A stretch of DNA of 64,000 nucleotides, taken from positions 310,001 to 374,000 of the forward strand of contig PMSM01000013.1 of the NCBI GenBank assembly GCA_003168335.1. Direction: 5' to 3'. The notes under the pieces were generated by a model that worked only from the letters and a program-made list of their open reading frames with translations, made no database searches and was not told the origin of the DNA. Below, in pieces: positions 26,122-62,118 of this stretch (its first letter is position 1; the number at the start of each line of letters is the position of its first letter). Position numbers and translations under genes: made by a program. The DNA comes from Blastocatellia bacterium (lineage in GTDB: Bacteria; Acidobacteriota; Blastocatellia; Pyrinomonadales; Pyrinomonadaceae).

Positions 26122-29004
26122 CTAATCGCCTGCCAGCTTCTTCCACACGCTCGCCTCGCCACCTGTCTTGATTAGATCAAAAACAGTCCTGTAAGCATCG
26201 GCGTAAAGCGCACGCATCTCCTGCTGCGAACCCGGTCGTTCGAGTTTCTTTTCAAGCTGGTCAGTCGTTAGTTTGGCCTTCGTCGCATAACGCGAAATCG
26301 TGGGGCCTTCGCCTGCAAGATAAATCGCGAACCCTTCCTCCAGCCAGCGTGGCGTGTGATTATGACTGACTGCATCGATCACAACATGGGCCAATTCATG
26401 ACGAAGAGTCGTTGTCAGGACGCCGCGACGTTTCAGAAGAGCCACTGGTTGCAGTTCAATTCGGTTTCCCTTTGTAGCCGCCGCAGCCCACCACGGTTGA
26501 CCGGTGTGCGCGGTAAAGTCACCCGTGCTTTCGTTGAGGCGAATCTCCAGCGTGGGCAGATTGCCGATCGAGACCGAGGCGGTGTTGGCCCGGCGCAGAA
26601 AGTCAGCGCGGGCAGATTCCAAAGTGCTCAATACCTGATCAGCATCACGGCGCTCGACATCGGCTGGGTAGGTCACGCGGAAGTGTTCGCTGGAGATGGT
26701 GAGGTATCTAGAGTTTGGGAAAGAAGGATCCGCCGCATAGCGGCGCGTGACTGTAGCCCTGCCTTTCAAGGCAGGGGTTACGTCGGCATACCATTCTGTC
26801 CGTCGCGTCAGCGACGGTTGACTAGAGAAATCAATCGTCGCTAACGCGACGAGTTGATCGTTTTCTTCCTGGTCCCGGGCCTTGAAAGGTCGGGCTAAAC
26901 TCACCGTGCTGCTGCGCGGCAAAATGCTCGTTCCCGGAAAATACTTCTCCAGGATCCGCTGGTAACTGACGCCGCGCGCAGCCATCACGTGCGCGCCCTC
27001 CTGACAGAGGCCGAGGCCGTGGCCAAAACCACTGCCGCGAAAGATGAAATTCGAACCTGAACGAGAGACTTCGAATCGCGAACTCTTCAGCACGTTCCAT
27101 CCCAGCACGCGGCCGACTATGATCTTGAAATCCCAACCGCGAACAGACTTTCGTTGCTCGCCTTCGAGTCTGATGAACTCCGCGCGGCCGGTGGCATCGC
27201 GCTTACTCACCAACACCTGGTCGAGTCGGGCGCCGACGTTGGTACGGGCATCGCTCTGGAGCGCGCGGAGCAAATCCGCGCGAGTGATCACGTCGTTCCA
27301 GGTGGCGTGCGGGCCTGAAAGACAATACTCGTCACGCACCCCACGCAGATATGCGGGCGGCGTCACCCCCCAAAGCGTCCCCTCGTTCGCAGTTTCACCG
27401 CCGCATGACGCGCCAAAGTACGCATCCACGAGCTGGCCTCGGTCGTCGATAAGTGTCTGGCCCTCGGTTGCGCGAACCGCCTGCAGCATCGTGTCAGAAG
27501 CCCGACTGTCAGGGAGGGCTTGATCATTCGATTCGGAGCCCTTGCTAACGCGCGGGCTTCTGAAACCAGCCGGCAAGAATCGCTGACAATGCGTGGTCGA
27601 GCAGAAGTCATAACCATCCTTCGCATGCCGTCCGCGATTTTTCAAAGCGTAAGTGCGAATCGCAATGGCCAGAGCTTTTAGCGCTTCGGGCTCCGTTTCC
27701 ATGCTGCCTTCAGCGTGCATCACCCCAAGCACGTAATCCTCCAAAGGCATTTCCCGGGTGACGTTCTCAGATACCAGATGGATCTTGATTGCTGATGTCG
27801 ATTTGGGTACGGCGGAATTATCGTTCGTGGAAATCGAGATAGTTTCAGTCTTAAGAGTCCGCGCACGAGCGCCGGCATAAGCTGCGAAAATTGGTTTCGA
27901 GAGCGCGGCCGCCTCAGCGCCATGCGAACGTCCCACCAGCACGAGCACCGCGAGATCGATCTCCGCCGAGCCCGGTTCACTCTTGGGTTGCGGAGCGCCC
28001 GCGAATCCCACGAACCAGCCGTTCGGGCGAAAACCTTTCGCCGGCAGCGACGTTCCGGTCTTGCCCATGATGTAAAGGGGAAGCAAATCAAGGTGAGCGC
28101 TCCGGGCGGTGCCGTAACGCACCGCGCCGGCCAGGCCTTCGGTGATAATCGCGCGGTGCTGTGGAGCGATGTCGATCGTCGCGCGCTCGACTGCAACAAA
28201 CCCGGCGGCACCGGCGAAGCGTGGTTGGAACAGATGTCCGCCATTCACCAGCGCGGTATAAGCCATCAGCAACTGAACTGGCGTCACCTGGATGTGATCG
28301 CTTTCGCCGATCGCTTCGCGCGCATCGCAATCGCTTTGCCGCGCGGCGTGGTTGGCTTCCTTTTGAATCCGCGCGCTGTTTCCTGTCTCGCACGGTCGCA
28401 ACGTTCCGGCTACATCTTCGTTGGGCCCGGTAAGCTGACCAAACCCGAACGGTCGCACGGTTTCGATTAACTTGTCGCGGCCGAGACGTTGGCCCAGCGT
28501 CGCGAAGTAGTAGTTGCAAGAGTACGCGATGGCCTGTGAGGGCGAGAACGGCGGCAAGTGATCGGCGTGCACGCACGCCAAGGAAAAATTCAGCCCGGTG
28601 AATCGTCCGGGACAAACCGTTCGGGAATCCTGATCAATCATTCCCGCCCGCAGCGCGGCCAGCGCGGTGAAGGGCTTCATCGTCGAACCAGGCATCATGG
28701 CCTGCCCGAAAGCAGTATTTTGGTTAACGATTGCCCGGACGCGACCGCTGTGCGCATCGATGACGATGATCGTGCCTTCGCGTTGGGCCAGAGCGGTGGT
28801 CGCAGCTTCCTGTAAGACCGAATCGATTTCGCTTTCAATTTCCGTTCTGTCGCGAGCAGAGTCTTCCGTCTTCCAGCCTAGCGACGCCCAGCCGCCAGGT
28901 GAAAAGGGAAAGCCGAGAAATAGAATCGCCACGCACGCGCAGGTGAGTAGCAGTGCATGCTCGCGGGTCATGCGGTCAAGATAGTTAATCGCGAGAAGCT
29001 TCAC
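26122..29004 (-). CDS. Penicillin-binding transpeptidase / SpoIID / peptidase-MA-like fusion
   Basis: A 960-residue membrane-anchored protein with three enzyme-like domains. A membrane helix (about 17-34) leads to a transpeptidase domain (about 75-375) with all three active-site motifs: Ser107-TM-Lys110, Ser162-C-Asn164 and Lys315-TGT. A SpoIID domain follows (about 405-700), with Glu432 in MHAEGS at the expected catalytic spot and GHGLGLCQEGA at 661-671. The C-terminal part (about 765-930) has HELAH (869-873) with a downstream WLEEGF, a gluzincin zinc site. SpoIID cleaves denuded glycan strands, so cross-linking and cutting activities are joined. It is the last gene of the cluster and overlaps the previous one by 4 nt. 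Confidence 0.9.
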   Translation of the reverse strand: MKLLAINYLDRMTREHALLLTCACVAILFLGFPFSPGGWASLGWKTEDSARDRTEIESEIDSVLQEAATTALAQREGTIIVIDAHSGRVRAIVNQNTAFGQAMMPGSTMKPFTALAALRAGMIDQDSRTVCPGRFTGLNFSLACVHADHLPPFSPSQAIAYSCNYYFATLGQRLGRDKLIETVRPFGFGQLTGPNEDVAGTLRPCETGNSARIQKEANHAARQSDCDAREAIGESDHIQVTPVQLLMAYTALVNGGHLFQPRFAGAAGFVAVERATIDIAPQHRAIITEGLAGAVRYGTARSAHLDLLPLYIMGKTGTSLPAKGFRPNGWFVGFAGAPQPKSEPGSAEIDLAVLVLVGRSHGAEAAALSKPIFAAYAGARARTLKTETISISTNDNSAVPKSTSAIKIHLVSENVTREMPLEDYVLGVMHAEGSMETEPEALKALAIAIRTYALKNRGRHAKDGYDFCSTTHCQRFLPAGFRSPRVSKGSESNDQALPDSRASDTMLQAVRATEGQTLIDDRGQLVDAYFGASCGGETANEGTLWGVTPPAYLRGVRDEYCLSGPHATWNDVITRADLLRALQSDARTNVGARLDQVLVSKRDATGRAEFIRLEGEQRKSVRGWDFKIIVGRVLGWNVLKSSRFEVSRSGSNFIFRGSGFGHGLGLCQEGAHVMAARGVSYQRILEKYFPGTSILPRSSTVSLARPFKARDQEENDQLVALATIDFSSQPSLTRRTEWYADVTPALKGRATVTRRYAADPSFPNSRYLTISSEHFRVTYPADVERRDADQVLSTLESARADFLRRANTASVSIGNLPTLEIRLNESTGDFTAHTGQPWWAAAATKGNRIELQPVALLKRRGVLTTTLRHELAHVVIDAVSHNHTPRWLEEGFAIYLAGEGPTISRYATKAKLTTDQLEKKLERPGSQQEMRALYADAYRTVFDLIKTGGEASVWKKLAGD

Positions 29005-29846
29005 GCAGGCGCCTCTGCCGGAGCATTGGGAACCGTGCTCACCGGCACTGCCGGGGATGTTTCACGGGTTGATCTTGCCAGCGTTGTCAGCGTTACAGTC
29101 CATCCAATCAAAGTGAAGGAATAAGCGAGTAGTAGCTGCGCAATGAAAACCGCGAAGTCGGTCTTCGTGCCTTTAGCTGGAATCCGCACGAAGAGGATGG
29201 CATAAGGAACCAGAACGAAGACGATCAAGCCGAGCCCGTATGTCAGCACTGAATCAAAGGCGAAAGCACCGGCCAGGGCATTGCCAACGCGCTTCGAAAC
29301 CGTTTTCGCGCCGCCGTCGAGCGAAGCGCGCAAATCCCGAGCGGTAACTTCAATCCATAGATGGATGGTCGCAAGCGGCAACGCGACGCCCAGAATTAGA
29401 AGTCTAACGGTAGCGAACAGGACCGTTGGCCAATGAAGAGGTTGGGTCGCAGGTGGCGTCCTGGCGCCGGGCGCTGCTAGCAAAGGCTCGGGAGCAAGGT
29501 AGTGCGCCTGCCACTTGTTGAGTAAGTAGGCCACCAAAAATCCGAGCAGGACAATAGGGATACTAACGACGGCGAGCTTAATTGCATCGCGCCCGATTTG
29601 TGCCCAATGAAACTTTTGGGTGCGCGCGTGATGCAGAATCGCGGCCTGCAGGACGAAGAACTCGATCGGTATCAGCACGAGAAAAACGAAAGTGATGGCT
29701 ACCTGCGAGATAGTGGCTTCGCGAACCCATGCAAACCCAAGCAGCGTCGCGAGCAGCAACGCGTAGAGTATTTTCAGAAGGCCGAAGGCCTTCGGGTTTG
29801 TTAGTAGTGATTTGGTGGTGTCGAGAAATCTTTTGATTGTGGTCAT
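29001..29846 (-). CDS. Multi-pass membrane protein, unknown family
   Basis: A 281-residue protein with about six membrane segments and short polar loops, ending in a Pro/Ala-rich tail. Its stop overlaps the start of the transpeptidase fusion by 4 nt (ATGA), so the two are translationally coupled. It lies 128 nt after the alpha-2-macroglobulin gene. No catalytic motif is visible. I do not recognise the family; a role in anchoring or assembling the envelope complex is inference from position only. Confidence 0.75.
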   Translation of the reverse strand: MTTIKRFLDTTKSLLTNPKAFGLLKILYALLLATLLGFAWVREATISQVAITFVFLVLIPIEFFVLQAAILHHARTQKFHWAQIGRDAIKLAVVSIPIVLLGFLVAYLLNKWQAHYLAPEPLLAAPGARTPPATQPLHWPTVLFATVRLLILGVALPLATIHLWIEVTARDLRASLDGGAKTVSKRVGNALAGAFAFDSVLTYGLGLIVFVLVPYAILFVRIPAKGTKTDFAVFIAQLLLAYSFTLIGWTVTLTTLARSTRETSPAVPVSTVPNAPAEAPA

Positions 29847-29974: not shown

Positions 29975-32900
29975 CTACTTCTTGTCCAAAATCCGCAACC
30001 GATCGTTGCTGGTATTCGCCTGCACAGTCGGTTGATACATCAGTTCCGCGCGCGCCGGCGCGACGCGGAATTCGCCGGGCACCTCGACGCGCATGGCATA
30101 CTGGAAAGTTGCGTCGCCGTCGAAATAATTCTCGAAGATGACAGTGCGATTGTCACGGAACTCGCGGTTGCTGTACCAATCCGACCACTGCCCGGTGGAG
30201 TAGTTCAGATAAATGCCGCTGACTTGCGCGACCTGTTCGGCTCCCGCCGGTATGGGATCCTCGATCATCAGGTATTGCGCGCGCGCGCCCGTCAGGTGCA
30301 GCCGCACGACAATCAAATCTCCTGAGCGCAGTTCGCCCGTTAACGGCTCGATCTTCCAACTCGACTTGCCGCCTTCATTCTCAGTTACATGCAAGCGCAG
30401 ATACTCGCGAGTGATCTTCAGATTCTGCGAAGCCTGGGCCGGCACGTTTTCGTCCGCGGTGAAATATTCCAGCGCGGTCGAGATGTAAAGCGCGCCTTTG
30501 CCGTGCTTCACGATCCGAATTTGATTGTTGGTGCTGACTTCGCCGGCCTTCTTTGTAATCACGAGGGCCTGGGCGTTGGTAGCATCGCTCGCGCCTACGT
30601 GTTGTGCGGCGACCTGCGTGCCGTTCAGATAAATCTCGAACGAGTAGTCGGGCGACAGTTCGTGACTGACCTTTAAATAGTCAGTCAAACCATAAATCGC
30701 GAATGCGGTTTCTTTGGTCGAGAGCCAGTAGTAACCGTTGCTGCGGTTCTTTACCAGCCAGCGCGCGACCTTCGGCAACAGCGCATTGTTCGGATCGATT
30801 TGCGACAGAGCTTTCAAGGACAGAGCTGTCGCTTCAGAGTCAAGATAGACATCGCGGCCATAGTCGTTGACCCGAGCAGTCTGCCAGTGCGCTTCGAATT
30901 CATCCTTCTGTGCCGCGCCGGCAATTGTGTTCGCGATTTCTTTGGCGCGGCCGTCTTTACGCTCCTGCAGTGCCAGCGCGAGCAGCGCGCGTCCGTACGG
31001 TCCAAGCTTGTCGCGTTTTGCGTAAAGCTCTTCGAGGTAGTGACCGTCGCTGTCACCGCTTTCGGTGAAAGCATAGATCATGTAAGCGCGGGTTTCGTCG
31101 TCGATCGGATTGCCGTCGTCGCGCTTGCCGGCGGTGAGCAGGGCGGAAAGTTTCTCGCGCCCGGAATCGCGCTTGGATGTGTCGATCTGATAACCCGCTC
31201 GAGTGGCCAGCGTCAGGCCATCGACTACGTAAGCAGTCATGAACGGGTCGGTTTTGTCATCCTTCCACCAACCCCAGCCGCCGTCATCGTGCTGATAGGC
31301 GTAGAGCCGATCCATACCCTTCTGCACCTTCTTGTCCAGATCGTTCGAGGCGCGCAGCTTCGCGGTCGGCACGTCTTTCAGCGCCTGCGCCACGATCACG
31401 TTTGGCAGGAAGCTCGACATCGTTTGTTCAGTGCAGCCATACGGAAAGCTCGTCAGGTAATCAAGAGCTCCGAACAGCGTGCCGGCAATTGACGATGACG
31501 CTTCAATGCGCATCACCCGGGCAGAGACATTGGGATTGACCGGAATGTCGAGAGCGATGGTTTGGTCGGCATCATTCTGCGTCAGAGTGGTCGAGTTCCC
31601 CATTGTCTGCTTCAGACCATGCGGCACGATTTCCATGGTCATCTCGACCGCGTCGGATTCAGTATCGGTGAGCGCCTTCGCCAACAGCGTCAGCTTGCCC
31701 ACCTGATCGGCGCGCACGCGCCAGTCAACCCGATGCTCCCCGTTTTGTTGGATGGTCACCGTTTCGCTGGGCGAATCCAGCAACTGCGCGCCGTTAAGGT
31801 CGAGCGAAATCTTCGTCGACTTATCGCTCTTCAGGAAGTTGTGCACCACGCCTGAGATTGTCACCGTGTCGCCTTCGGTCAGAAAGCGCGGCATCTCCAG
31901 ACGCATGATCACGTCTTTGCGCGCGATCGTTTTTTGGACGGCAGCGCCGACGCGCGTATCGGCGGTGACGGCGCGCGCAGTCGCCCGCCAGGTCGTCAGG
32001 TTGTCCGGCAGTGTGAAACTGACCGTGGCTTTGCCATCGCCGCCGGTGACGACGTCCGGTTGCCAGAAAGCAGTGTCCTTAAATTCGCGCCGGATCGTCG
32101 GTTCGGCGTACGAACTCTCGTTCTTGAAGTCAGCCAGTTGATAAGACGATTTATTCCGGGCCAGGTTCGCCGGTTTGTCGCCCGCATAGCCGGTGAAGGT
32201 GTAATGAATCGCGAGACTGGTTTGCACTGAGTCAAAGCGCTTGCCGTAAAACTCGCGTTTGATATTGCCGGCGGTGTCAGGCTGAATACTGTAGATCGCT
32301 TCGTCAATGATCCCGAGGCTCACTTCGGCGTTGGCGGCCGGCGATCCGTCCTCGTTGCGCGCCAGAATTGTGTACGATGCCACATCGCGTGGCTTGAACT
32401 CCTTCTTATTCGGAACAATGTCGAGCTTCAGCATTTTGTCGCGCGCCGGCACGGCCAGGAGTTGGCTCTGGTTGTACATGTCACTGTCTTTGACGAACGA
32501 GACGTCGAGATACACGTTCGGTTCATACTTGTGATCGATGGGTACGTCGATCACGATGCTGCGTCCGGTCGCATCGATTTGGCGCACGGTGATGACTTGG
32601 GCCAGTTCGGTAGTTACTAATAAATGGGCTTTGTCCGCTGGCAGCATGGCCAGCACGTGCGCCGTCTCGCCCGGCTTGTAGGATTTCTTGTCGGGCACAA
32701 GTTTGATCGACTTTTCGTCAAAGTCCCGGTACTGAAAATCAGACCATTCGCCCTTCTTGTCCGGCGCCCAGAACGAGCCGCCGCGATTAACGATCTGTTT
32801 TCCGTTCTCGTTGACGATTGCCTTGACGTAGATACTGCCGGGCGAGGGAACCGTGAAATCATAACTGCCGTTGCCCTGGCTGTCGGTATTCACCTCGGCC

Positions 32901-34894
32901 GTGGCCAGATCGCGTTCGTGCAGAACGTAATCGGTAGTCTTGTACTTATAGCCGTTGGTCTCTTCTTCTTTTTCGACTTTTTCCCACTTCTGTTCGACAA
33001 ACTTCAGCGTGACTTTCTCAGACACCGGCTTGCCTGAATAGTCAGCCGTCTTGACTTTGACCTTCGCGGCGTCGCCCTGGTAGTAGAGATAACGTTCGGG
33101 ATAAGCATCAGCGACTATCTTGCCGCGGGTGCCGATGAACGAAGCTGCGCCCTGCATTTCGCGGCGTGAGGCGTCGGTGACCTGGGCTTCCAGGCGGTAG
33201 GAATAGTCCCATTCGTCTTTCGCTTCAGGAGCCGGCACCTGGAATTCGACGGCCGCCTCGCCTTTGGAATTGAGTGAGGCGTCGCCCTCGGTCACGAGAT
33301 CGCTGCCAGAGTAGCCGGGGTCATTTTCGTCTCCGCCTTCGTTTTCCGGCCCGGCCGCGTCGTCGAACTCGTCGCTCGAATCGCCGCCCCACCACCAGTG
33401 GTAATAGCGCTGCTTATAAATGTAGTAATGCACGTCGGCGTTGGTAACCGGCGCGCCAAAAAAGTAGTTCGCGCTGATAGTGAACTTTACTTTCTCGCCG
33501 ACGGCGGCGAACTCTTTCGGGCCCGTGACCTTAACTTTGAACTCAGGTTTCTTGTATTCCTGAACTTCAAAGTAGCCGCTGGACTTTGCTTCGCCCACCG
33601 CGGCGGTAATGTTGTAACTGCCCAGCGGCGCTTCGTCCGCGATGTCCACCTCGCCGCTGAAAGTGCCGCGAGTCGAGAGTGGCAATTCCTTCTCGAAGAC
33701 TTTGCCGTTGTTGGGATCCTCGATGGTGACGTTGACCGTCTTGCTGTCGAGCAGTTCGTATCCGTTGCGTCCAAATTTGCGCAGGATGCCTTTAAAATAG
33801 ACTTTCTGGGCGGGGCGATAGATGGGCCGGTCGGTGTAGATATAGCTGGTTAGATCTTCACCGGTAAGAGCGTCGTCCTCGCCGCCTTCGCCGCCGAAGT
33901 AAAAAGACTCGACGTCCGAAATGACAAAGTTGTCGCGCTCCTTCGCCATGATCAGATAAGCGTTTTTAGTTTGCGATTCGGGGTCGACATCCTCGGGCGC
34001 GGCTTCGGTTGTTTGCGGCGCCTTGATCTCGGCTTTGAAAACACCGGTCTTGTCGGTTGAGCCGGTGGCGAGGGTTTGTTTGGCTTTAGTGACTTCGACG
34101 CTGACGCCTTCATGCGGCGCGCCGGATTTTCGATCGACGACATAGACCAGAACCTGGCCGTCCTTGGTCGTCTTTTCAATCATGGTGAGGTTGGTAACGA
34201 TGGCGATTGAGTAAGCGCGCAGGTCTCCGTTCACCGCCTCGATAAGATAGACGCCCGCCTCAACTTTTCCGAGCGAAACCATGCGGCTATCGTAGTCGTT
34301 CTCGAGCGGCGGCAGCTTCTCGCGCCAATCCTTAACTTTCTGATCCGGATTCAGCAGTGGGACGCGCGCGTAATCGGTGGCCACATTGAGCGGCGTGCGC
34401 TCAGGCGTGTCCTCTTGGCGGAATTTTTGATTGAAAGTCTCGCGATGCTCTTTCAGCAAATGCGAGCGCACGTAATCCCGGACTGCCGAGAAAAGTGAAA
34501 TCTTCAGGCGGTGCGTGCGCTCCAGAATCGAGACGCGGCTGCCATAACCCTGCGAGACTGCTTCCTTTTCCTTCTCGCCCATTTGATGTGGGTCGTCGAG
34601 TTGCTTAAAGAATTTCGAGGGGTCCTTAACCCGATAGACACGAAAGTCCAGATAGTCGACATTCTGGTAGCTGGCCCACATCCGCGCCGACTCGTTCGGC
34701 GAGTAAGTGCGATTGGTGGTCAGCGAGAAGTAGGGCTTACTGCTGACAATCGTTGGTCCGGGCGGCGGCGCCTCTGCGGACGGTCGCGCGGCGCGCGAGC
34801 GAATGATGTTGAATCCGAAAGCCGAGGCAACGATTGCCAGATAGATCGCCGCGGTTGCCAGATAACGAGGTAGACGCGATTTAGTTTGCGACAC
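29975..34894 (-). CDS. Bacterial alpha-2-macroglobulin, thioester type
   Basis: A 1639-residue envelope protein thought to trap proteases by a bait-and-thioester mechanism. An N-terminal hydrophobic segment (about 10-30) gives export and anchoring. Macroglobulin beta-sandwich repeats follow, with the hallmark DRPIYRPAQKVYFKG near residue 355. The thioester motif is intact as YGCTEQ, with Cys1154 and Gln1157. A Trp/Asp/Glu/Gly-rich segment (about 500-540) is a possible bait or linker insert. Bacterial family members are usually paired with PbpC or grouped with DUF1175 (YfaT) proteins; here both a DUF1175 protein and a transpeptidase fusion flank it. Confidence 0.93.
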   Translation of the reverse strand: MSQTKSRLPRYLATAAIYLAIVASAFGFNIIRSRAARPSAEAPPPGPTIVSSKPYFSLTTNRTYSPNESARMWASYQNVDYLDFRVYRVKDPSKFFKQLDDPHQMGEKEKEAVSQGYGSRVSILERTHRLKISLFSAVRDYVRSHLLKEHRETFNQKFRQEDTPERTPLNVATDYARVPLLNPDQKVKDWREKLPPLENDYDSRMVSLGKVEAGVYLIEAVNGDLRAYSIAIVTNLTMIEKTTKDGQVLVYVVDRKSGAPHEGVSVEVTKAKQTLATGSTDKTGVFKAEIKAPQTTEAAPEDVDPESQTKNAYLIMAKERDNFVISDVESFYFGGEGGEDDALTGEDLTSYIYTDRPIYRPAQKVYFKGILRKFGRNGYELLDSKTVNVTIEDPNNGKVFEKELPLSTRGTFSGEVDIADEAPLGSYNITAAVGEAKSSGYFEVQEYKKPEFKVKVTGPKEFAAVGEKVKFTISANYFFGAPVTNADVHYYIYKQRYYHWWWGGDSSDEFDDAAGPENEGGDENDPGYSGSDLVTEGDASLNSKGEAAVEFQVPAPEAKDEWDYSYRLEAQVTDASRREMQGAASFIGTRGKIVADAYPERYLYYQGDAAKVKVKTADYSGKPVSEKVTLKFVEQKWEKVEKEEETNGYKYKTTDYVLHERDLATAEVNTDSQGNGSYDFTVPSPGSIYVKAIVNENGKQIVNRGGSFWAPDKKGEWSDFQYRDFDEKSIKLVPDKKSYKPGETAHVLAMLPADKAHLLVTTELAQVITVRQIDATGRSIVIDVPIDHKYEPNVYLDVSFVKDSDMYNQSQLLAVPARDKMLKLDIVPNKKEFKPRDVASYTILARNEDGSPAANAEVSLGIIDEAIYSIQPDTAGNIKREFYGKRFDSVQTSLAIHYTFTGYAGDKPANLARNKSSYQLADFKNESSYAEPTIRREFKDTAFWQPDVVTGGDGKATVSFTLPDNLTTWRATARAVTADTRVGAAVQKTIARKDVIMRLEMPRFLTEGDTVTISGVVHNFLKSDKSTKISLDLNGAQLLDSPSETVTIQQNGEHRVDWRVRADQVGKLTLLAKALTDTESDAVEMTMEIVPHGLKQTMGNSTTLTQNDADQTIALDIPVNPNVSARVMRIEASSSIAGTLFGALDYLTSFPYGCTEQTMSSFLPNVIVAQALKDVPTAKLRASNDLDKKVQKGMDRLYAYQHDDGGWGWWKDDKTDPFMTAYVVDGLTLATRAGYQIDTSKRDSGREKLSALLTAGKRDDGNPIDDETRAYMIYAFTESGDSDGHYLEELYAKRDKLGPYGRALLALALQERKDGRAKEIANTIAGAAQKDEFEAHWQTARVNDYGRDVYLDSEATALSLKALSQIDPNNALLPKVARWLVKNRSNGYYWLSTKETAFAIYGLTDYLKVSHELSPDYSFEIYLNGTQVAAQHVGASDATNAQALVITKKAGEVSTNNQIRIVKHGKGALYISTALEYFTADENVPAQASQNLKITREYLRLHVTENEGGKSSWKIEPLTGELRSGDLIVVRLHLTGARAQYLMIEDPIPAGAEQVAQVSGIYLNYSTGQWSDWYSNREFRDNRTVIFENYFDGDATFQYAMRVEVPGEFRVAPARAELMYQPTVQANTSNDRLRILDKK

Positions 34895-35151: not shown

Positions 35152-36066
35152 TCACTGCAGGATCTTCAATCGATAAAACCCGATAAAGTTGTGATTGCTT
35201 TCCACCGGCCGCCAGCGCGGATCAGGGTGGCGGTCAAGGACTGAAAGCTGAACCTTTTTTACTGTTCCCTGATCGGTCGGCGATGACCCGGTGTGATAGA
35301 CCACCCAGTCCTGCGCGCCATTCGGCGCGATCCGCGCTGAGCCGAGCAAGATCATCACGTGATAGGGAAACTTCCGCACCCACGGTTGATAGAAGAAAAG
35401 CAGATCGCCGGGCTGGGCCTCGCGCCGATCACGGCTGACAAAGACGCTGTTGAAATTCTTTAGTGAGCGGCCGTCAGCAAACTCTGAGAACCTCCCGTTG
35501 CGCAGGTCGCTCTCATGAAAAGACCCAAAGTCCGTGCGAAAGATTTTCTCGCCGAGCGGATTCTGATCGAGATCAAAGCCGGCCACATCCGGCGCGATGG
35601 TTTCATAGCCCGGCCCCATTTTCTGAAACCAGACCCGATTGTGACGACGCAGCGCTTCGCGCATCGCAAATCGCACCATTCCGGCGCAGTCGCGCTGTTC
35701 GGCGTTCCATTGATCGCTCAATTGATAGAACTGATTTTCGGCGATCGCCGTGAACCAGCGTCGAAAACTGTCGCGATCCTGAAACGTGTGCAACTCGGCA
35801 ACGTCCGGAATGCCGTCGCTGTCTGAGTCGATTAGCTTTGCTTCGGCGGACGTGCTGGTCGAAGCGGAACTAGCGGCCGCGCTTTCTGCCTCCTGCTTTC
35901 TGCCTCCGGCCTTCTGCTTGATTGAGGCGGGCGCCCCTTCGAAACCACGCGCACGCGGCAGCAAACCTCTAAAGCTCCACGCCAGCGCTGCGAGCAGGAT
36001 CAAGAGGATGCTCGCCATCGTCACCAGGCGCTTCGAAGGGGCACGCATTTGATAGGACATCAGCAT
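35152..36066 (-). CDS. DUF1175 (YfaT-like) membrane-anchored protein
   Basis: A 304-residue protein with an N-terminal membrane helix, a linker, and a domain matching DUF1175, the family that accompanies alpha-2-macroglobulin genes (as yfaT beside yfaS in E. coli). The domain looks papain/NlpC-like, with Cys127 in RDCAGMVRF and His236 in PYHVMILLG as candidate catalytic residues. A DSDSDGIPDV segment resembles calcium-binding type-3 repeats. Part of the linker (residues about 49-62) is encoded by a dispersed repeat. ATG 36066 is chosen; TTG 36075 and ATG 36048 are possible. It is the first gene of the cluster. Confidence 0.83.
   Translation of the reverse strand: MLMSYQMRAPSKRLVTMASILLILLAALAWSFRGLLPRARGFEGAPASIKQKAGGRKQEAESAAASSASTSTSAEAKLIDSDSDGIPDVAELHTFQDRDSFRRWFTAIAENQFYQLSDQWNAEQRDCAGMVRFAMREALRRHNRVWFQKMGPGYETIAPDVAGFDLDQNPLGEKIFRTDFGSFHESDLRNGRFSEFADGRSLKNFNSVFVSRDRREAQPGDLLFFYQPWVRKFPYHVMILLGSARIAPNGAQDWVVYHTGSSPTDQGTVKKVQLSVLDRHPDPRWRPVESNHNFIGFYRLKILQ
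35881..35920. repeat. Purine-rich dispersed repeat inside DUF1175 gene
   Basis: On the minus strand, AGAAGGCCGGAGGCAGAAAGC followed by AGGAGGCAGAAAGC. The same aggcagaaagcag unit recurs at 55121-55183. Here it encodes a Lys/Gly/Gln/Glu-rich linker between the membrane helix and the catalytic domain. Confidence 0.65.
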
Positions 36067-36091
36067 TGCTGACAACTAATACGCCGTTTAT

Positions 36092-36373: not shown

Positions 36374-38827
36374 ATGCCCAAAGAGAACGCCAATCCCGCT
36401 GCCATTCTTGAAGCCATCCGGAAGATCGAGATCGTGTCTGAGCTGCTCGAGGAAAAGAACAAAAACAATCTGAAAATGATCGCCGAAGGGAAAGTGTCGG
36501 GTGGCAAGCAAATCGGTCCGTATGCGCGTTTGCTTACTTACTCTGCGGGCGAAGTGATCATGACCGAGGGCGAATGGGGCGGAAACACCTTTTATTTTTC
36601 GGTCGACGGAGAGTTGCACGTTTATGTCGCGGACGAGTCGGGTCAAAAACGGAAGGTGGGCACAGTTCAGCCGGGCACGTGCTTTGGCGAGATGTCGATT
36701 CTCGCCGGCGTTCCCCGCAATGCCACCATCGTCACCGCTCCCTCCGGTGGCGACGCGACGGTTTTGGAAATGGTCAGGCCGGCCCTCAGGCTCTTAAGGT
36801 CGCTAAGAAAATTCGCCGAGAAGGTTGACGCGAGTTATCGACTTCATGGCCTGGGAAATACGGTCGCCGCGATCCAGGAAGAGACCGGCGAGGCCTTGAG
36901 CGCAATCGAGTTGGTTGCACTCGGCAATCTGGCGCAGTTTATGGCCTACGGCAAGCACCATCTGCTGGTCGAAGAAGGGAAGCCGATCGAAAAGCTGCTC
37001 CTGATTCGCAGCGGCTGGGTGCGCCGCGTGCGCGGTGTGCCGATTTATAAGGACCTCACGGACAGTGCCGGGCCAAGTGTGCTGATCCCCGAGGATTTTC
37101 TGGGGGCGGGCAATTGCCTGGGATTAGAGGCGCTCAGCGGCCAGGCGACCTGGCAATATTCAGCCGAGCTGATGGCTCGGACTGAGGTGCTGGAGATTTC
37201 ATTGTCTGAACTGCGCGGCGACCGGAAACTCTGCGAGCGAGTTTTGAAAGCCTTCGGTGATTTTTCCGTCGCCGATGATGATACGAGCGTGCGCGCTCGC
37301 GCTGAGCCGAAGGTTCTGGCTGCGGCCGAGAAAGAAATCACAACCGGAATCGTCGACGCGGTCAACCTGCTGGTCATGGACATGGATTTGTGCGTGCGTT
37401 GCGGTAATTGCTCGCTCGCCTGTCATAAGGTCCATGGCCAATCGCGGCTCCTGCGTCGCGGCATACACATTGAACGTCCTCAGCAGATCGGATCCAAGGC
37501 TACGCAACACGTGCTGGCACCTTCAGTGTGCATGCACTGTAAGGATCCTGAGTGCCTGACCGGCTGTCCCACGGGTGCGATTTTTCGCGATCCGAAAGGA
37601 CAGGTAGACATCAATATAGACACTTGCATTGGCTGTTTCGATTGCGCGACGCAATGTCCTTACAACGCCATCTCGATGGTTCCTCGCGAGGGATCGCCGA
37701 CCGTGCCGCTGGATTTGAAGACCCGCATAAGCAATCTGTTCAGCTTCAACGTCCAGAAGCCCGCGGCGGCCGTCGAAAGCGACGACATGGTGGCTATCAA
37801 GTGCAATCTCTGTGAAAGCACGACCTTGAATCCGAGCGGTGCGTCGCGTCCGGCTTATTCGTGTGAAGAGAACTGCCCCACCGGAGCGCTGGTCCGGGTC
37901 AACCCGCAGGAATATTTCGGCGAGATTGAAAAGACCCTCGGTCTTGTCTTCCGGGATCAGACGCACGCTATCGGTCGCAATATACATAAAAGCGATCCGA
38001 TCGCCAGGCTCTGGCACATCGGCGGTGTCTTGGTGACGATAGCCATCGCCGGCGTGATTGGCTGGGCGGTCCTGCATTACGGATTCCGGGAGCACCTGCG
38101 CGGAACCTGGCTGACGATGCGTTGGGTAACCGGGCTGGTGGGTCTGGTGGGAATCGCGGGTGCGATAACCTATCCGGGTCGAAAGCAAGTGTATCGCCGG
38201 CGCGTGGGTGCTTTGCGTTACTGGCTGCTGGCGCATATTTATCTTGGGGCGCTCGGGGGCATCGTGTTGCTCATGCACGGCGGCAGTCATGGCGGCAGCT
38301 GGTTGACCTCGGTGTTGATGCTTTGGTTTGACGCGGTGATCGTGACGGGCCTTTTCGGACTGTTTTGTTACCTGATTGTGCCGCGCATCATGACCAGTAT
38401 CGAAGGCGATCCGTTGCTGATCGAAGATCTGGAAGGACGCCGGGCTGAGCTGCGCGAAGAGTTGGCGACGATCAGCGGCAAAGGCGACGCGCAACTACGT
38501 GATTTGATCGAACGAAGAGTGCGCCGCCATTTCTCATCACTCCGGTATCTCATGAGACAGTATCTGCGCGGCCAGGACTTGACCGCATCGTTGGCGAAAG
38601 GCCGTCTGGAGTTCAAAGACGAAATGGCCACCCTTGGCGACCGGGAAAAACGCCACTTATTTTTGAAAGCGATTGAGCGGGCGGCGACCCTCCGACGAGT
38701 GGAATCGCTGATCTATCTTCACCGGCTCCTCAAAGTGTGGCTGGCGCCCCATGTCATTTCAACGTCGGTGATGTTGGCTCTGATGGTTGTGCACATTATT
38801 CAGGTCGTGTTTTTTAACGTTCGCTAG
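36374..38827 (+). CDS. Cyclic-nucleotide-binding / tetra-[4Fe-4S] / diheme cytochrome b fusion
   Basis: An 817-residue inner-membrane redox protein. Domain 1 (about 45-140) is a cyclic-nucleotide-binding fold with an intact phosphate cassette, FGEMSILAGVPRNAT (Phe104, Arg115). Domain 2 (about 180-290) is a second, degenerate copy. Residues about 339-530 carry four ferredoxin-type cysteine sets (CVRCGNCSLAC, CMHCKDPECLTGC, CIGCFDCATQC, CNLCE with CEENC), the layout of DmsB/NrfC-like subunits. About five membrane helices follow, with His621/His635 and His793/His807, each pair 14 apart, as in bis-histidine diheme cytochromes b. Inferred role: cNMP-responsive electron transfer between iron-sulfur carriers and the quinone pool. 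Confidence 0.85.
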   Translation: MPKENANPAAILEAIRKIEIVSELLEEKNKNNLKMIAEGKVSGGKQIGPYARLLTYSAGEVIMTEGEWGGNTFYFSVDGELHVYVADESGQKRKVGTVQPGTCFGEMSILAGVPRNATIVTAPSGGDATVLEMVRPALRLLRSLRKFAEKVDASYRLHGLGNTVAAIQEETGEALSAIELVALGNLAQFMAYGKHHLLVEEGKPIEKLLLIRSGWVRRVRGVPIYKDLTDSAGPSVLIPEDFLGAGNCLGLEALSGQATWQYSAELMARTEVLEISLSELRGDRKLCERVLKAFGDFSVADDDTSVRARAEPKVLAAAEKEITTGIVDAVNLLVMDMDLCVRCGNCSLACHKVHGQSRLLRRGIHIERPQQIGSKATQHVLAPSVCMHCKDPECLTGCPTGAIFRDPKGQVDINIDTCIGCFDCATQCPYNAISMVPREGSPTVPLDLKTRISNLFSFNVQKPAAAVESDDMVAIKCNLCESTTLNPSGASRPAYSCEENCPTGALVRVNPQEYFGEIEKTLGLVFRDQTHAIGRNIHKSDPIARLWHIGGVLVTIAIAGVIGWAVLHYGFREHLRGTWLTMRWVTGLVGLVGIAGAITYPGRKQVYRRRVGALRYWLLAHIYLGALGGIVLLMHGGSHGGSWLTSVLMLWFDAVIVTGLFGLFCYLIVPRIMTSIEGDPLLIEDLEGRRAELREELATISGKGDAQLRDLIERRVRRHFSSLRYLMRQYLRGQDLTASLAKGRLEFKDEMATLGDREKRHLFLKAIERAATLRRVESLIYLHRLLKVWLAPHVISTSVMLALMVVHIIQVVFFNVR

Positions 38828-38994: not shown

Positions 38995-40464
38995 ATGGAA
39001 GCTACCTTCATCATCATCCGTGAGGACTTGCAGGTCGATCCGGTGACGATCGTTGCCGAAGGCCTGCTGGTCGGGCGACTGCCTACCTGCGAACTGCTCC
39101 TGAACCACCCGTCGGTTTCCCGTCTGCATGCCGGCATCACCAGCGCCGACGGTGACTTTTACATTCGTAATCTTCGCCCCGGCAATCCCATCATGCTCAA
39201 CGGCGCGCGCCTGGAAGAATACGAAGCGCTGGCTGACGGCGATGTCATCGGCGTTGGTCCGTTTACTCTGAACATCCACTTCGTGCAAGGCACGCTGGTC
39301 ATCCAAGTATCGTTACAGATTGCCGCGACCGCGGGTGACGCGGTAACGCGCCGGGAAGCATCCGGGCTTTGGGAGCTGCCCACGACAGTGCACCTGGAAT
39401 TGCCGAGCACCCCGCCGGAAGGACACCTTGCAGAAGCAGCGCATAAGAAGCCGGCGGCACGAAAAGCAAAGCCTGCCGCGGACAGTTCAAAGGCCCTCGA
39501 CGTTTTTTGGGACAAGCGCATCACCGCGGCGACCAAGACGATCAAGCCGTCTCCACTTTTTCCGCTCACCGGGCGACCGAGCGGTAAAGCCCAGTCTGTC
39601 TGGACCCCGACTACCGATCTAAGACGGCGCTGGCCGGCGTCGCTGATGCTCTGGAGCGCGATTCCGATCGCTTTACTGTCAGTGGCGGGCGCGCTCTTCT
39701 ATGCCTCGGCGTTTGCTCCGGCCCCAATCTCTGAGGCACACACCAGATCCAGCAGACTGCTGTCGCCGCCGGTGGCGAACCGTGCGAACGCCGGCTCGTG
39801 TACTTCCTGTCACGCGTTCAGAGCGGACATGGAAGCGAAGTGCTCAGCGTGTCACGCGACGGAGGCTTTTGTGGCCACAGTGATCCAGCCGCACATGAAT
39901 GCCGGCATCGGTTGCGTGGCTTGTCACAGCGAACATCGCGGCGTGGAGTTCAACGCCATAGATGGAGCGCTGCAATCGTGTGCCGAATGCCATAACGACA
40001 GTAACCAGACTCTCTACAACGGAAAGAAAGTCAGCACCCCGCACGGTGGGACATTTGGCTATCCGGTGATCAATGGTCAGTGGAAGTGGGCCGGACTCGA
40101 CCCGGAAGAGTTGCTCCAGCGAAAGACCCCGTTGAAGCTGGAGCGGCTACCGAGCGACAGCGAGAATCAATGGCGCAGCAAACAGTTCCATGCAGTCCAT
40201 GCGTATCGGGTTCGTGCGATTGGAGGGCTTCCGGGAGACAAAGAAGGCGAATTGAGCTGTCCGAGTTGTCATGCTACGCAAAACCCTCCCGATTTAGCTA
40301 CGCCACGAACGACGTGCGCCAAGTGCCACAACGGTCAAGAGGATCCCCGGGCGCGACATCAGGTGATCGCTGCCGACAAACCTAACTGCACCTCATGCCA
40401 TATTCAGCACCGTCTGGACAAAAGACATTGGAATCCGGGTTTACTGGCGAAAGCGACGCAATGA
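38995..40464 (+). CDS. FHA domain - membrane helix - heptaheme cytochrome c
   Basis: A 489-residue fusion of a signalling reader and a cytochrome. The N-terminal FHA domain (about 20-105) keeps the phosphothreonine-binding residues: VGRLPTCELLL, PSVSRLHAG and NPIMLNGARL. A basic linker leads to one membrane helix (about 215-240). The C-terminal part (about 267-470) has seven CxxCH motifs: CTSCH, CSACH, CVACH, CAECH, CPSCH, CAKCH, CTSCH. With FHA in the cytosol and hemes in the periplasm, the helix would link protein phosphorylation to periplasmic electron flow. It follows the CNB redox gene on the same strand by 167 nt and is probably its partner. Confidence 0.88.
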   Translation: MEATFIIIREDLQVDPVTIVAEGLLVGRLPTCELLLNHPSVSRLHAGITSADGDFYIRNLRPGNPIMLNGARLEEYEALADGDVIGVGPFTLNIHFVQGTLVIQVSLQIAATAGDAVTRREASGLWELPTTVHLELPSTPPEGHLAEAAHKKPAARKAKPAADSSKALDVFWDKRITAATKTIKPSPLFPLTGRPSGKAQSVWTPTTDLRRRWPASLMLWSAIPIALLSVAGALFYASAFAPAPISEAHTRSSRLLSPPVANRANAGSCTSCHAFRADMEAKCSACHATEAFVATVIQPHMNAGIGCVACHSEHRGVEFNAIDGALQSCAECHNDSNQTLYNGKKVSTPHGGTFGYPVINGQWKWAGLDPEELLQRKTPLKLERLPSDSENQWRSKQFHAVHAYRVRAIGGLPGDKEGELSCPSCHATQNPPDLATPRTTCAKCHNGQEDPRARHQVIAADKPNCTSCHIQHRLDKRHWNPGLLAKATQ

Positions 40465-45171: not shown

Positions 45172-47334
45172 CTATAGATTCGGGCTGCGCGGAAGCTTAA
45201 CAAATGGCAGACGCACGCTGCGCACAAAAAACTGATCGGCGCGAATGTTGACCGGTGGCGTGTAGCCGACACTTCCTCCGGCGGCGATCAAATCGTCCTG
45301 GTCAATGCCGTCGCCGCTGATGCCGATCGCGCCGACCAACTCGCCGTTCTTATAAAGCGGAATGCTGCCCGCAAAGATTTGCAGCCCATTCGCCAGATTC
45401 GGTAGCGATGTGCACGGCGCCACGCCGCCCGCAAGCACTGTCTGCAGATTCGTCTTGATCAGATCGAGTTGCAGTCCAACGTTGAAAACGCTCCACTGAT
45501 CTATTGGCGGACTGAATGGCCCGGGCGCAGTGTTGTTGATGCCGTCCGGAAAGAAGGGGCGGTGCAGAAAACCAATCGCGCGATCGCTGAGCGCAATCGC
45601 GCCATTGAGTTGTACGCCGTCACTCGCGGCCCGCGTGACGTAAGCACCAAAGCCTGCGCCGTTCAATAACGCTCCCGCATTTGCGCGCGAAAACAACGCC
45701 GCCGTGCGCGCCTTCTGGACCGCTACGTCGAACCCAAACACCGGCGCATCCGTCTGGCGGAAGACGCCGAGCACCACGCCGTTTGTATCAACCACCGCTA
45801 TCGTCACCCGCGCGTTGCTGCCGAGCGGTTGCCGGATCGCCGCGCGGGTAATGTTTCCCTGCTGGGCAGCGTGCGCAACGATCGTGCTGACATCGGCAGC
45901 AGTGAGCGAGTTCGGCGTGATCGTAGGGCTGCCGACAAAGGGAAAGAAACGTGTGTCGACTTCGCCGGCGATGCCGCCAACGACCGCGGCGGTGAATTCT
46001 GATGGTTGCGCTCCGCGAATTGGAAACAAAGGATCTACCGTGCCGGGCAAACTTAAGAACGCCATCGTGGGCGGAGCGGGCGCGTTGGTGACGTTGAGGT
46101 AAGCGAGTCGAATGCCGTCGACGAGAATGTTGTCACCGCGTATCAATGATGGAGCTTCGAAACCGCGCGCGGCCGACACTGCTATCACTTCTTCGAACGG
46201 CTGATCGAAATCAGACGGATCGCGATCGACGGTATAGAGGCCATCGCCTTCGATGCCCACACCGCCGACTGCTTCGCCGTTTTTATAAATCGGCACGCTG
46301 CCGGGATCTCCGCTCAGGCCGAGCGGCAGCCCGGGTATCTTGATGTCCGAACAGGGAAGCGAAGAAAACTGCACGCCGTAGAGTGGACCGCCTGAGCGAA
46401 AATCGACGCCCGGGGGAAAATGTTCCTGGAGGATAAAGCCCGCCGTGCGCGAAGTGAAAGCATTGCCGCCCGTGCTGAACAAAGACGCCGTGCCGGCCTT
46501 CGAGATTGCCGCCAGCTTTGCCGGCACCACGGTTCCATCAAGCCCGACCGGGACGAATCCGGTAAGCGGGTTGGGAACTTGCGAAGGCCCCGGTCCACCA
46601 CCGCGAAATTGGGTCGAGGCAGGTGCGCCGTTCATCTTGAAAACGCCCAGTACATTTCCTTCTCGATCAGTGACCGCAACGGTCACCGGATGATTCAACG
46701 CGGCGGCGGTCGAAACCGCCTGCGCGATGATCGTCTGCACCTCGGACGTGCTGAGCGTGCCCGCCGTGCTTGCGTGTGGCGCCGGTGGGGTGGTTGATCC
46801 CGGGGTCGGGATCGCGCCGGTGTCGTCGGGCGGGCCATCGCCTACGTGACCAATGCCGACGCGCACGCGATTGCTCTGCGTCCCGTGATAACTAATTCCT
46901 ACCAGGACGTCGCCCGTGTCTCCCATCTGATCGTCGAGCCGCAGCACGATCGAACTAAGCCATTCCTGCTCAGGTACCGGTCCGACGTATTCAACTGCCA
47001 ATTGATAGATATTGTGCGCGCCATCTTCCGCATCTGCGGTAACCGCGGTGGCTGCTTCGCCCGGCTGCAAACTCAAGCCCATCGCAAAGATCATAATGCG
47101 AGTGCGACTGTCCGATCCCCAGGGCACCGCCGCAGCCGCAGAGAAAGGCTCGTGCGTCTGGGTCACTGAATCGACAGCCACCGCGCGGGTAGAAGTCTCT
47201 TCGCTGATCAGTGTTAGCTTGTTGCTTTGTGAGTGCGCTTGGCTGAAGAAAGTAAGGCTGGCGAAAACCACGAGCGCGCAAATGGACGTTGCCAGCACAA
47301 AGCGCGTGCGTTTGACCAGAGACTTAGCTGTCAT
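45172..47334 (-). CDS. Exported protein with two GlcG/HbpS (DUF336) domains
   Basis: A 720-residue protein with a signal peptide (residues 10-33). An N-terminal beta-sandwich (about 60-165) precedes two GlcG/HbpS-like domains at about 193-420 and 478-715. Each contains the family pattern VTVAVTDREGNVLGVFKM / VTIAVVDTNGVVLGVFRQ, then a helix with TAALFS, and a C-terminal SVPIYKNGEAVGGVGIEGDG / SIPLYKNGELVGAIGISGDG. HbpS binds heme in Streptomyces, but heme binding is not assured here. It is the first gene of the minus-strand cytochrome series. Confidence 0.85.
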   Translation of the reverse strand: MTAKSLVKRTRFVLATSICALVVFASLTFFSQAHSQSNKLTLISEETSTRAVAVDSVTQTHEPFSAAAAVPWGSDSRTRIMIFAMGLSLQPGEAATAVTADAEDGAHNIYQLAVEYVGPVPEQEWLSSIVLRLDDQMGDTGDVLVGISYHGTQSNRVRVGIGHVGDGPPDDTGAIPTPGSTTPPAPHASTAGTLSTSEVQTIIAQAVSTAAALNHPVTVAVTDREGNVLGVFKMNGAPASTQFRGGGPGPSQVPNPLTGFVPVGLDGTVVPAKLAAISKAGTASLFSTGGNAFTSRTAGFILQEHFPPGVDFRSGGPLYGVQFSSLPCSDIKIPGLPLGLSGDPGSVPIYKNGEAVGGVGIEGDGLYTVDRDPSDFDQPFEEVIAVSAARGFEAPSLIRGDNILVDGIRLAYLNVTNAPAPPTMAFLSLPGTVDPLFPIRGAQPSEFTAAVVGGIAGEVDTRFFPFVGSPTITPNSLTAADVSTIVAHAAQQGNITRAAIRQPLGSNARVTIAVVDTNGVVLGVFRQTDAPVFGFDVAVQKARTAALFSRANAGALLNGAGFGAYVTRAASDGVQLNGAIALSDRAIGFLHRPFFPDGINNTAPGPFSPPIDQWSVFNVGLQLDLIKTNLQTVLAGGVAPCTSLPNLANGLQIFAGSIPLYKNGELVGAIGISGDGIDQDDLIAAGGSVGYTPPVNIRADQFFVRSVRLPFVKLPRSPNL

Positions 47335-50551: not shown

Positions 50552-50573
50552 GGGGCGTTTATTTTTTAAGTTG

Positions 50574-53500: not shown

Positions 53501-54572
53501 GCGACAATTGCCCGCCGACAAACTAGTCAACGAAGAACAGCCGATTCATTCGCTTTACGCTTATTTATATTTGGTTGATAAGTTCGAAGGATTGATTCTG
53601 GTGAACGCGGCCACGCTGCTGGATGGCGACCCGCTGAATAACTATCTGAAGCGCCAACTCGATCCAAACAAGTATGCTAACGGAGCGTTCAATCCTGACG
53701 GTGCGCTTACGGGAGCGAACAACATCGTCCTCGCGGGCGCCTACGCTTATATTACGACCGACCGTGAACTCGTAATCGTCAACCTCGACGATCCGCTTAA
53801 CCCAAAGATCACCGGTCGTATTGCCGCGCCGTTGCTCAAGCATCCGCGCGCGGTTGCGATTCAATTTAGGTACGGCTTTGTCGTCGATGACGATGGCCTG
53901 AAGGTCATTGATCTAACTGAGCCAGGGAGCGCGCGAGTGGTCGAAGGCGCGCTGGTGCCGCTGGCTGATGCGCGCGACGTGTACGCGGCGCGCACCTACG
54001 CCTACGTGGCCGACGGTAAGGACGGGATGGCGATTATTGATGTGAAGCTGCCGGAGAAACCGCGCAGCGTCCAAATTTACAGCGCGGGCGGTCAACTAAA
54101 CGATACGCGGCAGGTGAAGATCGCCATGACCAATGCGAGCCTGTTTGCCTACGTCGCTGACGGAAAAAATGGTTTGCGGATCGTGCAACTAACTTCTCCG
54201 GAGACGATGGCGACTTATGCCGGCTTCAGTCCGCGGCCTGAGCCGCAATTGATTGCCACCTTCAAAACAAAAGGTGCCGCGCTGGCTGTTTCCAAAGCTC
54301 TCGATCGTGATCGGGCCGTGGATGAGAGCGGTCACCAGATCGCCGTCTTTGGCCGGCGTGGCGCGCGACCATTTACGTTTGCGGAAATGCAGCGGACGCT
54401 CCGGACCAACGAAGGGCAGGGGCCATTATTTACCGTCACTGACGAGCCGACCACAGAGCCGCGCAACCCGAAAGCGGCTGGTCTTTCCAAGTCGGCCGCC
54501 CTCGTTGGCGTTTTGTCAGGACTGCTTCTCGCTGTCGCCGGTTGGCGGATGCGCGGACGCGGGTTGGGGTGA
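50574..54572 (+). CDS. Large multiheme cytochrome c with C-terminal LVIVD propeller
   Basis: A 1332-residue exported protein. A hydrophobic signal (about 8-25) contains VGSC, a possible lipobox. Nine CxxCH motifs lie between about residues 55 and 800 (CLKCH, CTACH, CTACH, CMICH, CVDCH, CIDCH, CFACH, CFGCH, CSDCH). A tenth candidate is noncanonical: Cys154-Gly-Gly-Glu-Cys158-His159, a CX3CH. From about 840 to 1240, repeats like [15 protein letters not shown] and [16 protein letters not shown] are LVIVD units of a beta-propeller. A C-terminal hydrophobic helix with basic end follows (about 1305-1330). Inferred role: surface or outer-membrane terminal electron carrier. ATG 50592 is an alternative start. 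Confidence 0.88.
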
Positions 54573-61967: not shown

Positions 61968-62118
61968 GTTGCAGGAATTTTGAGCGCCCTTAAGGGTTCA
62001 GAGCTTACATAGGACGAGCAACGCACGTCGCCCCTCGACGCGCAAATCAAAGCAGCGAGAGTTTCATTCAGTTCCGCCTCGATCTTGCGATAGTATTTTG
62101 TTAACGAGGGAGTTGCCG

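Follow-up and report, generated by a model that had tools for sequence, protein, structure and literature searches.

Bacterial alpha-2-macroglobulins (A2Ms) have so far been read as protease traps. In Escherichia coli, the A2M named ECAM (YfhM) is paired with the penicillin-binding protein (PBP) PBP1C (PbpC), and an idea of defense and repair has been put forward for this pair (PMC4498604). In the present study, we analyzed 64,000 nucleotides of a Blastocatellia bacterium (assembly GCA_003168335.1, contig PMSM01000013.1, positions 310,001 to 374,000), hereafter called the window. A gene at 26122..29004 on the minus strand of the window encodes a fusion of a membrane anchor, a transpeptidase (TP) domain, a SpoIID domain, and a gluzincin-like domain. 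It is the last of four genes that include an A2M, and we consider its product to be a probable peptidoglycan enzyme of an A2M envelope-defense module.

The closest described systems are the mag operon of Pseudomonas aeruginosa and the yfa locus of E. coli (yfaA-T-S-Q-P). In the published description of mag, the operon comprises six genes, type I A2Ms go with PBP1c and thioester-less type II A2Ms with mag, and MagE is thought to be cytoplasmic, possibly as a chaperone or processing factor (PMC5764988). According to a study from 2025, the mag operon confers protection from two wall-attacking effectors of the type VI secretion system (T6SS), VgrG3 and Tae1, by a mechanism that was left open (PMC12663445). 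A review that cites the MagC study describes DUF1175, the family of MagC, as inactive and as a binder of peptidoglycan (PMC10318531). In E. coli K-12, the gene order is yfaT (DUF1175), yfaS (A2M, a pseudogene in K-12), and yfaQ, and the intact copy in Citrobacter is alike. YfaQ has been described as a TP-like N-terminal part and a SpoIID-like C-terminal part, a description in which a third domain is not mentioned; its deletion gave wider cells and showed links to peptidoglycan and membrane genes, and the terms macroglobulin, YfaS, and YfaT do not occur in the main text of that paper (PMC12282094). SpoIID acts on glycan strands as a lytic transglycosylase/muramidase, and denuded strands are among its substrates (PMC6635528). 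In the literature searched, no study linking a SpoIID protein to an A2M turned up, and among the papers listed for the architecture, PMC12282094 alone was relevant.

Results

Architecture of the fusion

The fusion is encoded by a single open reading frame of 960 aa on the minus strand. It starts with GTG and shares 4 nt (29001-29004) with the upstream gene, at the stop of the latter. Residues 17-35 (28900..28956; hydropathy 2.26 over 19 residues) form the sole hydrophobic segment and are the only anchor candidate. The single anchored chain described in an earlier note on this DNA is thus borne out, and the three domains and all of the motifs listed there were located in the sequence with the same numbering: S107TMK110, S162CN164, K315TG, E432, GHGLGLCQ (661-668), HELAH (869-873), and E890.

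The TP domain (about residues 58-345, 27970..28833) matched Pfam Transpeptidase (PF00905) over residues 77-341 at 7.6e-34 (117.7 bits against a cut-off of 22.1). An AlphaFold2 model of the whole fusion (mean pLDDT 69.7, pTM 0.41) had three domains joined by low-confidence linkers at 385-403 and 698-765. The modeled TP region resembled Helicobacter pylori PBP2 (5lp4; Z 33.5, rmsd 2.8, 290 aligned), and its best structural matches were PBP2 and PBP3. With its residues intact, this domain is active-looking. No Pfam match to GT51 or to the PBP dimerization (pedestal) domain was found in the fusion, in agreement with the earlier note, and the TP domain starts at about residue 58, after the anchor. 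In this respect, the fusion is unlike class A and class B high-molecular-mass PBPs, which carry one of these domains before the TP domain. A standard two-domain PBP was ruled out by the lack of a partner domain.

The SpoIID domain (about residues 402-697, 26914..27801) matched Pfam SpoIID over residues 414-518 at 4.2e-20, above the cut-off, and NCBIfam SpoIID_LytB over residues 417-694 at 4.2e-48 (164.6 bits against a cut-off of 83.3). It also matched the SpoIID structure 5i1t at 8.9e-21. As in SpoIID/LytB proteins, the domain is whole, its catalytic position is taken by E432, and it has a His/Cys cluster. The residues of this cluster, H460, C468, H472, and C473, may resemble the zinc site of clostridial SpoIID. 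Unlike SpoIID/LytB proteins, the fusion carries the domain between TP and gluzincin domains and has no sporulation context.

The zinc protease-like domain (about residues 765-960, 26125..26712; H869, E870, H873, E890) was the weakest call of the earlier note. Pfam Peptidase_MA_2 matched residues 865-951 at 7.6e-5 with 23 to 24.1 bits, short of the 32.4 bits of the curated cut-off. Since the fold search with the whole-fusion model picked up the TP region only, residues 760-960 were modeled alone (pLDDT 93.8, pTM 0.90). This model resembled collagenase 8jt1 (Z 14.8, rmsd 3.2, 191 aligned) as well as the catalytic domains of M1 aminopeptidases (Z 14.8 downwards). A search of a viral structure library gave nothing of use other than aminopeptidase-like and unnamed matches. 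The third domain is predicted to adopt a gluzincin (Peptidase MA-like) fold that retains HExxH and E890 in their positions, and the call is upheld to that extent.

Conservation of catalytic residues

We compared 24 full-length rows of the class, leaving out L041 and L043, the third domain of which sits in a separate neighboring frame (a frameshift or a true split), and the divergent L054. The TP residues S107, K110, S162, N164, K315, T316, and G317 were invariant, as were the SpoIID residues E432, H460, C468, H472, C473, C534, H662, and C667 and the gluzincin residues H869, E870, and E890. H873 was kept in 23 of the 24 rows. In L054 and eight fusions from other classes (L199-L204, L213, L078), the TP serine and lysine, SCN, and KTG were kept. 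So were the glutamate and the GH..GLC core of SpoIID and, in the third domain, HExxH and the downstream Glu, but not Q668. The SxxK, SxN, and KTG motifs were present in 10 of the 10 rows listed in the wider phylum comparison. A loss of active residues in close homologues, which the earlier note had raised as a doubt, was not the pattern found in these class and phylum rows.

H873 is lost in a fusion of the same genus (L039:12172-15189), which has HELAL for HELAH. One zinc ligand is gone in this protein, while the other checked catalytic residues are kept.

The four-gene module

The fusion occupies the end of an operon, a setting that the earlier note had not seen. On one strand, the gene order is DUF1175, thioester A2M, six-helix membrane protein, and fusion. 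The DUF1175 protein (35152..36075, minus strand; 307 aa, NlpC/P60-like) matched Pfam DUF1175 at 1.7e-64 and the MagC structure 7bk8 at 4.2e-25; it is of the MagC/YfaT type, and all 16 proteins of the alignment keep its Cys and His. The A2M (29975..34894, minus strand; 1639 aa) has an N-terminal anchor at residues 13-31, the Pfam domains MG2, BRD, A2M, TED, and bMG10, and a GCTEQ thioester motif, and matched YfhM structures at 2e-31. The membrane protein (29001..29846, minus strand; 281 aa), which shares the 4-nt overlap with the fusion, has six hydrophobic segments; no Pfam family matched it above the cut-off, and a family profile recovered it in sister loci.

The same four genes in the same order and on the same strand were found in all 25 non-redundant loci that reached far enough (the window, L033-L054, L073, and L075). 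The survey had 35 sources. Three of them duplicated contigs already counted (L071, L072, L074), six ran into a contig end (L056-L059, L076, L077), and one (L055) held a different SpoIID protein. Variants among the 25 loci were extra sequence between the A2M and the membrane protein (L044, L047) and an A2M in two frames (L053).

Homologues of the fusion were present in 48 of the 162 searched genomes of the class, including its own, and in 22 of 53 genera; the nearest named relatives were labeled Acidobacteria or Pyrinomonadaceae. The recurrence of the join in 47 other genomes rules out an assembly artefact, which the earlier note had considered, and a chance join. In 41 of the 48 genomes, an A2M orthologue was located on the same contig, 831-3738 nt away. 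In the other seven, the A2M was on a different contig or not found, and the fusion was near a contig end. At a fusion match threshold of 1e-50, five genomes had the A2M without the fusion: four were cut at a contig end (G057, G067, G148, G157), in the last of which the contig still reaches past the membrane protein into the beginning of the TP domain, and one (G058) has a divergent fusion. The resulting 2x2 table of fusion against A2M over 162 genomes was 46/2/5/109, with a p-value (4e-32) that ignores kinship.

Linkage across Acidobacteriota

We searched 392 genomes of the phylum with the A2M of a Terriglobia metagenome-assembled genome as a query, at a threshold of 1e-100. A2M matches were obtained in 32 genomes. 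Four of these (G217, G426, G461, G464) were weak (about 1e-106 to 1e-113) and look like the PbpC kind. In the two that we examined (G217, G426), a PbpC-like gene (31-35% to E. coli PbpC) comes immediately after the A2M.

Among the remaining 28 genomes, TP-SpoIID-MA (MA, the gluzincin-like domain) was next door to the A2M in 23 and elsewhere in the genome in 3 (about 26 kb off on the same contig in G211; on other contigs in G316 and G497). In the other two (G355, G487), the contigs end too early to judge. Nine of the 28 fall in the class, all with an adjacent fusion. Outside the class (19 genomes), 14 have TP-SpoIID-MA adjacent to and tail-to-tail with DUF1175-A2M, fused in seven (G259, G275, G291, G402, G451, G477, G507) and split into TP followed by SpoIID-MA in seven (G288, G323, G378, G413, G441, G481, G505). 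The adjacency persists although the genes are tail-to-tail and often split; therefore, it is not merely that of a frozen operon. The pairing is not strict, since G430 (L213) has a fusion and a nearby 146-aa DUF1175 fragment with no A2M match.

In a tree of A2Ms (30 rows), 18 mag-like A2Ms were on one side of a branch (99), together with Citrobacter YfaS, and YfhM grouped with the PbpC-linked A2Ms; the YfhM and YfaS branches are very long, and their placing is unsure. A C[TV]EQ motif was present in every mag-like A2M listed. The classical YfhM-PbpC pairing was rejected for the window locus because PbpC-like neighbors were seen only beside other A2Ms (L214, L215).

Other A2Ms of approximately 2000 aa, two of them in the genome of the window (L187, L188), had no TP or SpoIID neighbors by the profiles used. 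Some of these larger A2Ms bear CSEQ or no thioester motif.

Relationship to yfa and mag

An alignment of YfaQ and its Citrobacter homologue with a profile of eight Terriglobia-type fusions by hhalign gave a probability of 95.4% (E 1.7e-8) over 313 columns, covering TP and then SpoIID. In the controls, 15 of 16 other E. coli proteins gave at most 0.8%, the reversed sequence 0.8%, and 10 shuffles at most 0.3%, while PbpC, which has a true TP domain, gave 56%. YfaQ as a single sequence gave 68.4% over 58 columns, and its SpoIID score was 7.2e-6. DUF2300 (PF10062) had no match in the window fusion at E<=1, with a weak one (0.016) in L079 only. A blastp search at 1e-4 for relatives of YfaA and YfaP, the E. 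coli counterparts of mag genes, returned none beside the fusion, a point in which the locus differs from mag.

Like YfaQ, the fusion is adjacent to an A2M in the order DUF1175-A2M-X and has TP followed by SpoIID and a C-terminal HExxH. With respect to mag, the DUF1175 protein is of the MagC type, the A2M and the fusion take the positions of MagD and MagE, and the location is the envelope. In contrast to the six-gene mag operon with its thioester-less type II A2M, as published (PMC5764988), the A2M of the window has the CxEQ thioester motif. Based on sequence comparison, the fusion is probably a counterpart of YfaQ and, by gene position, of MagE, and a complete relative of both. The earlier note had called the domain join unusual. 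The architecture is real and conserved; however, it is not unique or categorically new, because a TP-SpoIID protein, YfaQ, has already been described at the corresponding position (PMC12282094). What is new is a complete, active-looking variant with a predicted gluzincin domain and a thioester A2M as its partner.

Discussion

We propose that the fusion is the peptidoglycan enzyme of an A2M envelope-defense module and a counterpart of YfaQ with its catalytic residues intact, a reading that we regard as somewhat better than even. Membership in the A2M module is well supported by the conserved gene order and linkage, and this setting shifts the likely role from general wall growth toward A2M-linked envelope defense or repair. 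The best reading by analogy extends the ECAM-PBP1C repair idea, in which an A2M traps an incomer and the paired enzyme may mend the wall. As in the window, a thioester A2M there lies beside a gene for a peptidoglycan transpeptidase (PMC4498604). E. coli PbpC is described as a transpeptidase plus transglycosylase, without the SpoIID and peptidase domains of the fusion, and a pair of the YfhM-PbpC type occurs separately in Acidobacteriota.

The module may respond to a breach of the outer membrane together with an attack on the wall, by proteases or by wall hydrolases of T6SS or predators. The anchored A2M would capture an invading protein via its bait and thioester, and DUF1175 would tether the A2M complex to peptidoglycan. 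The SpoIID domain may then trim glycan strands stripped of stem peptides, and the TP domain may re-cross-link neighboring strands. Since the fusion has a cutter and no polymerase, trimming and re-cross-linking would fit better than the laying of new strands. Because it has no glycosyltransferase, the TP domain might alternatively receive new strands from a SEDS polymerase. For the gluzincin domain, the substrate may be a peptide or a protein, with trapped invaders and the A2M as conceivable targets. Which reactions take place, in what order, and against which threat is inferred here, as is the repair of peptidoglycan by the fusion.

The predicted peptidase fold of the third domain and the degenerate TP and SpoIID motifs of YfaQ would also suit a role in A2M maturation: clipping or activation of the A2M would fall to the gluzincin domain, together with DUF1175, and TP and SpoIID would serve as wall anchors rather than repair enzymes. 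A mere anchor would not need catalytic residues, yet those of TP and SpoIID are invariant in the class and kept across the phylum, and the relative that lost a zinc histidine still keeps its other residues; we regard this role as unlikely. Instead, the fusion may serve ordinary wall growth or division: it would then be a monofunctional, class-B-like PBP that bears a SpoIID tail and works with a SEDS polymerase in morphogenesis, and its A2M neighborhood would be historical. The closest structures are the TP domains of PBP2 and PBP3, other bacteria have SpoIID proteins that work at the septum (PMC6635528), and the deletion of yfaQ alters cell width (PMC12282094). However, the fusion has a patchy distribution (48 of 162 class genomes) and hence is not essential, the host encodes eight other TP domains, the A2M linkage holds across rearranged gene orders, and a dimerization or pedestal domain for a SEDS partner is missing. 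An ordinary growth enzyme thus appears improbable. More improbable still is a TP domain that acts as a beta-lactam sensor, carboxypeptidase, or beta-lactamase-like domain and not as a cross-linker: weak class D beta-lactamase and BlaR1 profile matches (7.3e-9) and the TP-only build without a partner domain point that way, whereas the PBP2 profile is far stronger (4.4e-42) and PBP2 and PBP3 are the best structural matches.

Several results weigh against the proposal of an A2M-linked peptidoglycan enzyme related to YfaQ. SpoIID-MA occurs at ten loci (L217-L226) with neither TP nor A2M/DUF1175 in the stretch examined. The profile of the window class aligned to YfaQ over only 45 SpoIID columns (78.9%, E 1.6e-5), and the full TP plus SpoIID match therefore depends on the Terriglobia-type set. 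YfaQ is shorter (549 aa), and by eye its motifs are degraded (PLGSLWK; RSCG, that is, SCG for SCN; KTW for KTG; no GHGLGLCQ), so that part of the family may be non-catalytic. A profile comparison of the third domain with the C terminus of YfaQ gave 4.2% (E 0.01), and the likeness is that of an HEYLH seen by eye at the same place near the C terminus. The A2Ms of mag, as published, and Citrobacter YfaS lack the thioester that is present here, and the parts may consequently work differently. Furthermore, the 2018 mag paper saw no stable MagD-MagE complex (PMC5764988).

The SpoIID-MA proteins of L217-L226 are 512-676 aa in length, and nine of the ten have no HExxH motif. They form a separate branch of the family that is possibly non-catalytic.

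We tentatively speculate, as a possibility on the lower side of even, that A2M operons of the Mag/Yfa type are cell-wall repair systems at root. MagE/YfaQ may originally have combined cutting, cross-linking, and a peptidase arm in one complete machine, which stayed intact in Acidobacteriota with a covalently capturing thioester A2M, while the proteobacterial versions lost the thioester and their active sites decayed. If so, the division into thioester A2Ms with PbpC and thioester-less A2Ms with mag would not be general. A thioester A2M inside a mag-type locus already falls outside the type I/type II scheme as published (PMC5764988). A conserved partner with intact residues offers a concrete, testable candidate for the mechanism of mag protection, namely, wall repair by enzymes of the MagE/YfaQ type, and for experiments, a fusion of the window type is better suited than E. 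coli YfaQ with its degraded motifs.

Other genes in the window

The window also encodes a 567-aa protein (62098-63801, plus strand) with another penicillin-binding transpeptidase domain (5.7e-40); the genome has nine TP domains in total, this one included. Two neighboring genes (36374-38827 and 38995-40464, both on the plus strand) encode a possible redox-signaling pair, in which cyclic-nucleotide-binding domains are fused to 4Fe-4S ferredoxin domains, beside a fusion of an FHA domain with a cytochrome c3-like domain. A 720-aa protein (45172-47334, minus strand) has three HbpS-like (heme-degrading) stretches, and a 1333-aa protein (50571-54572, plus strand) has LVIVD repeats and cytochrome c7/c3-like matches.

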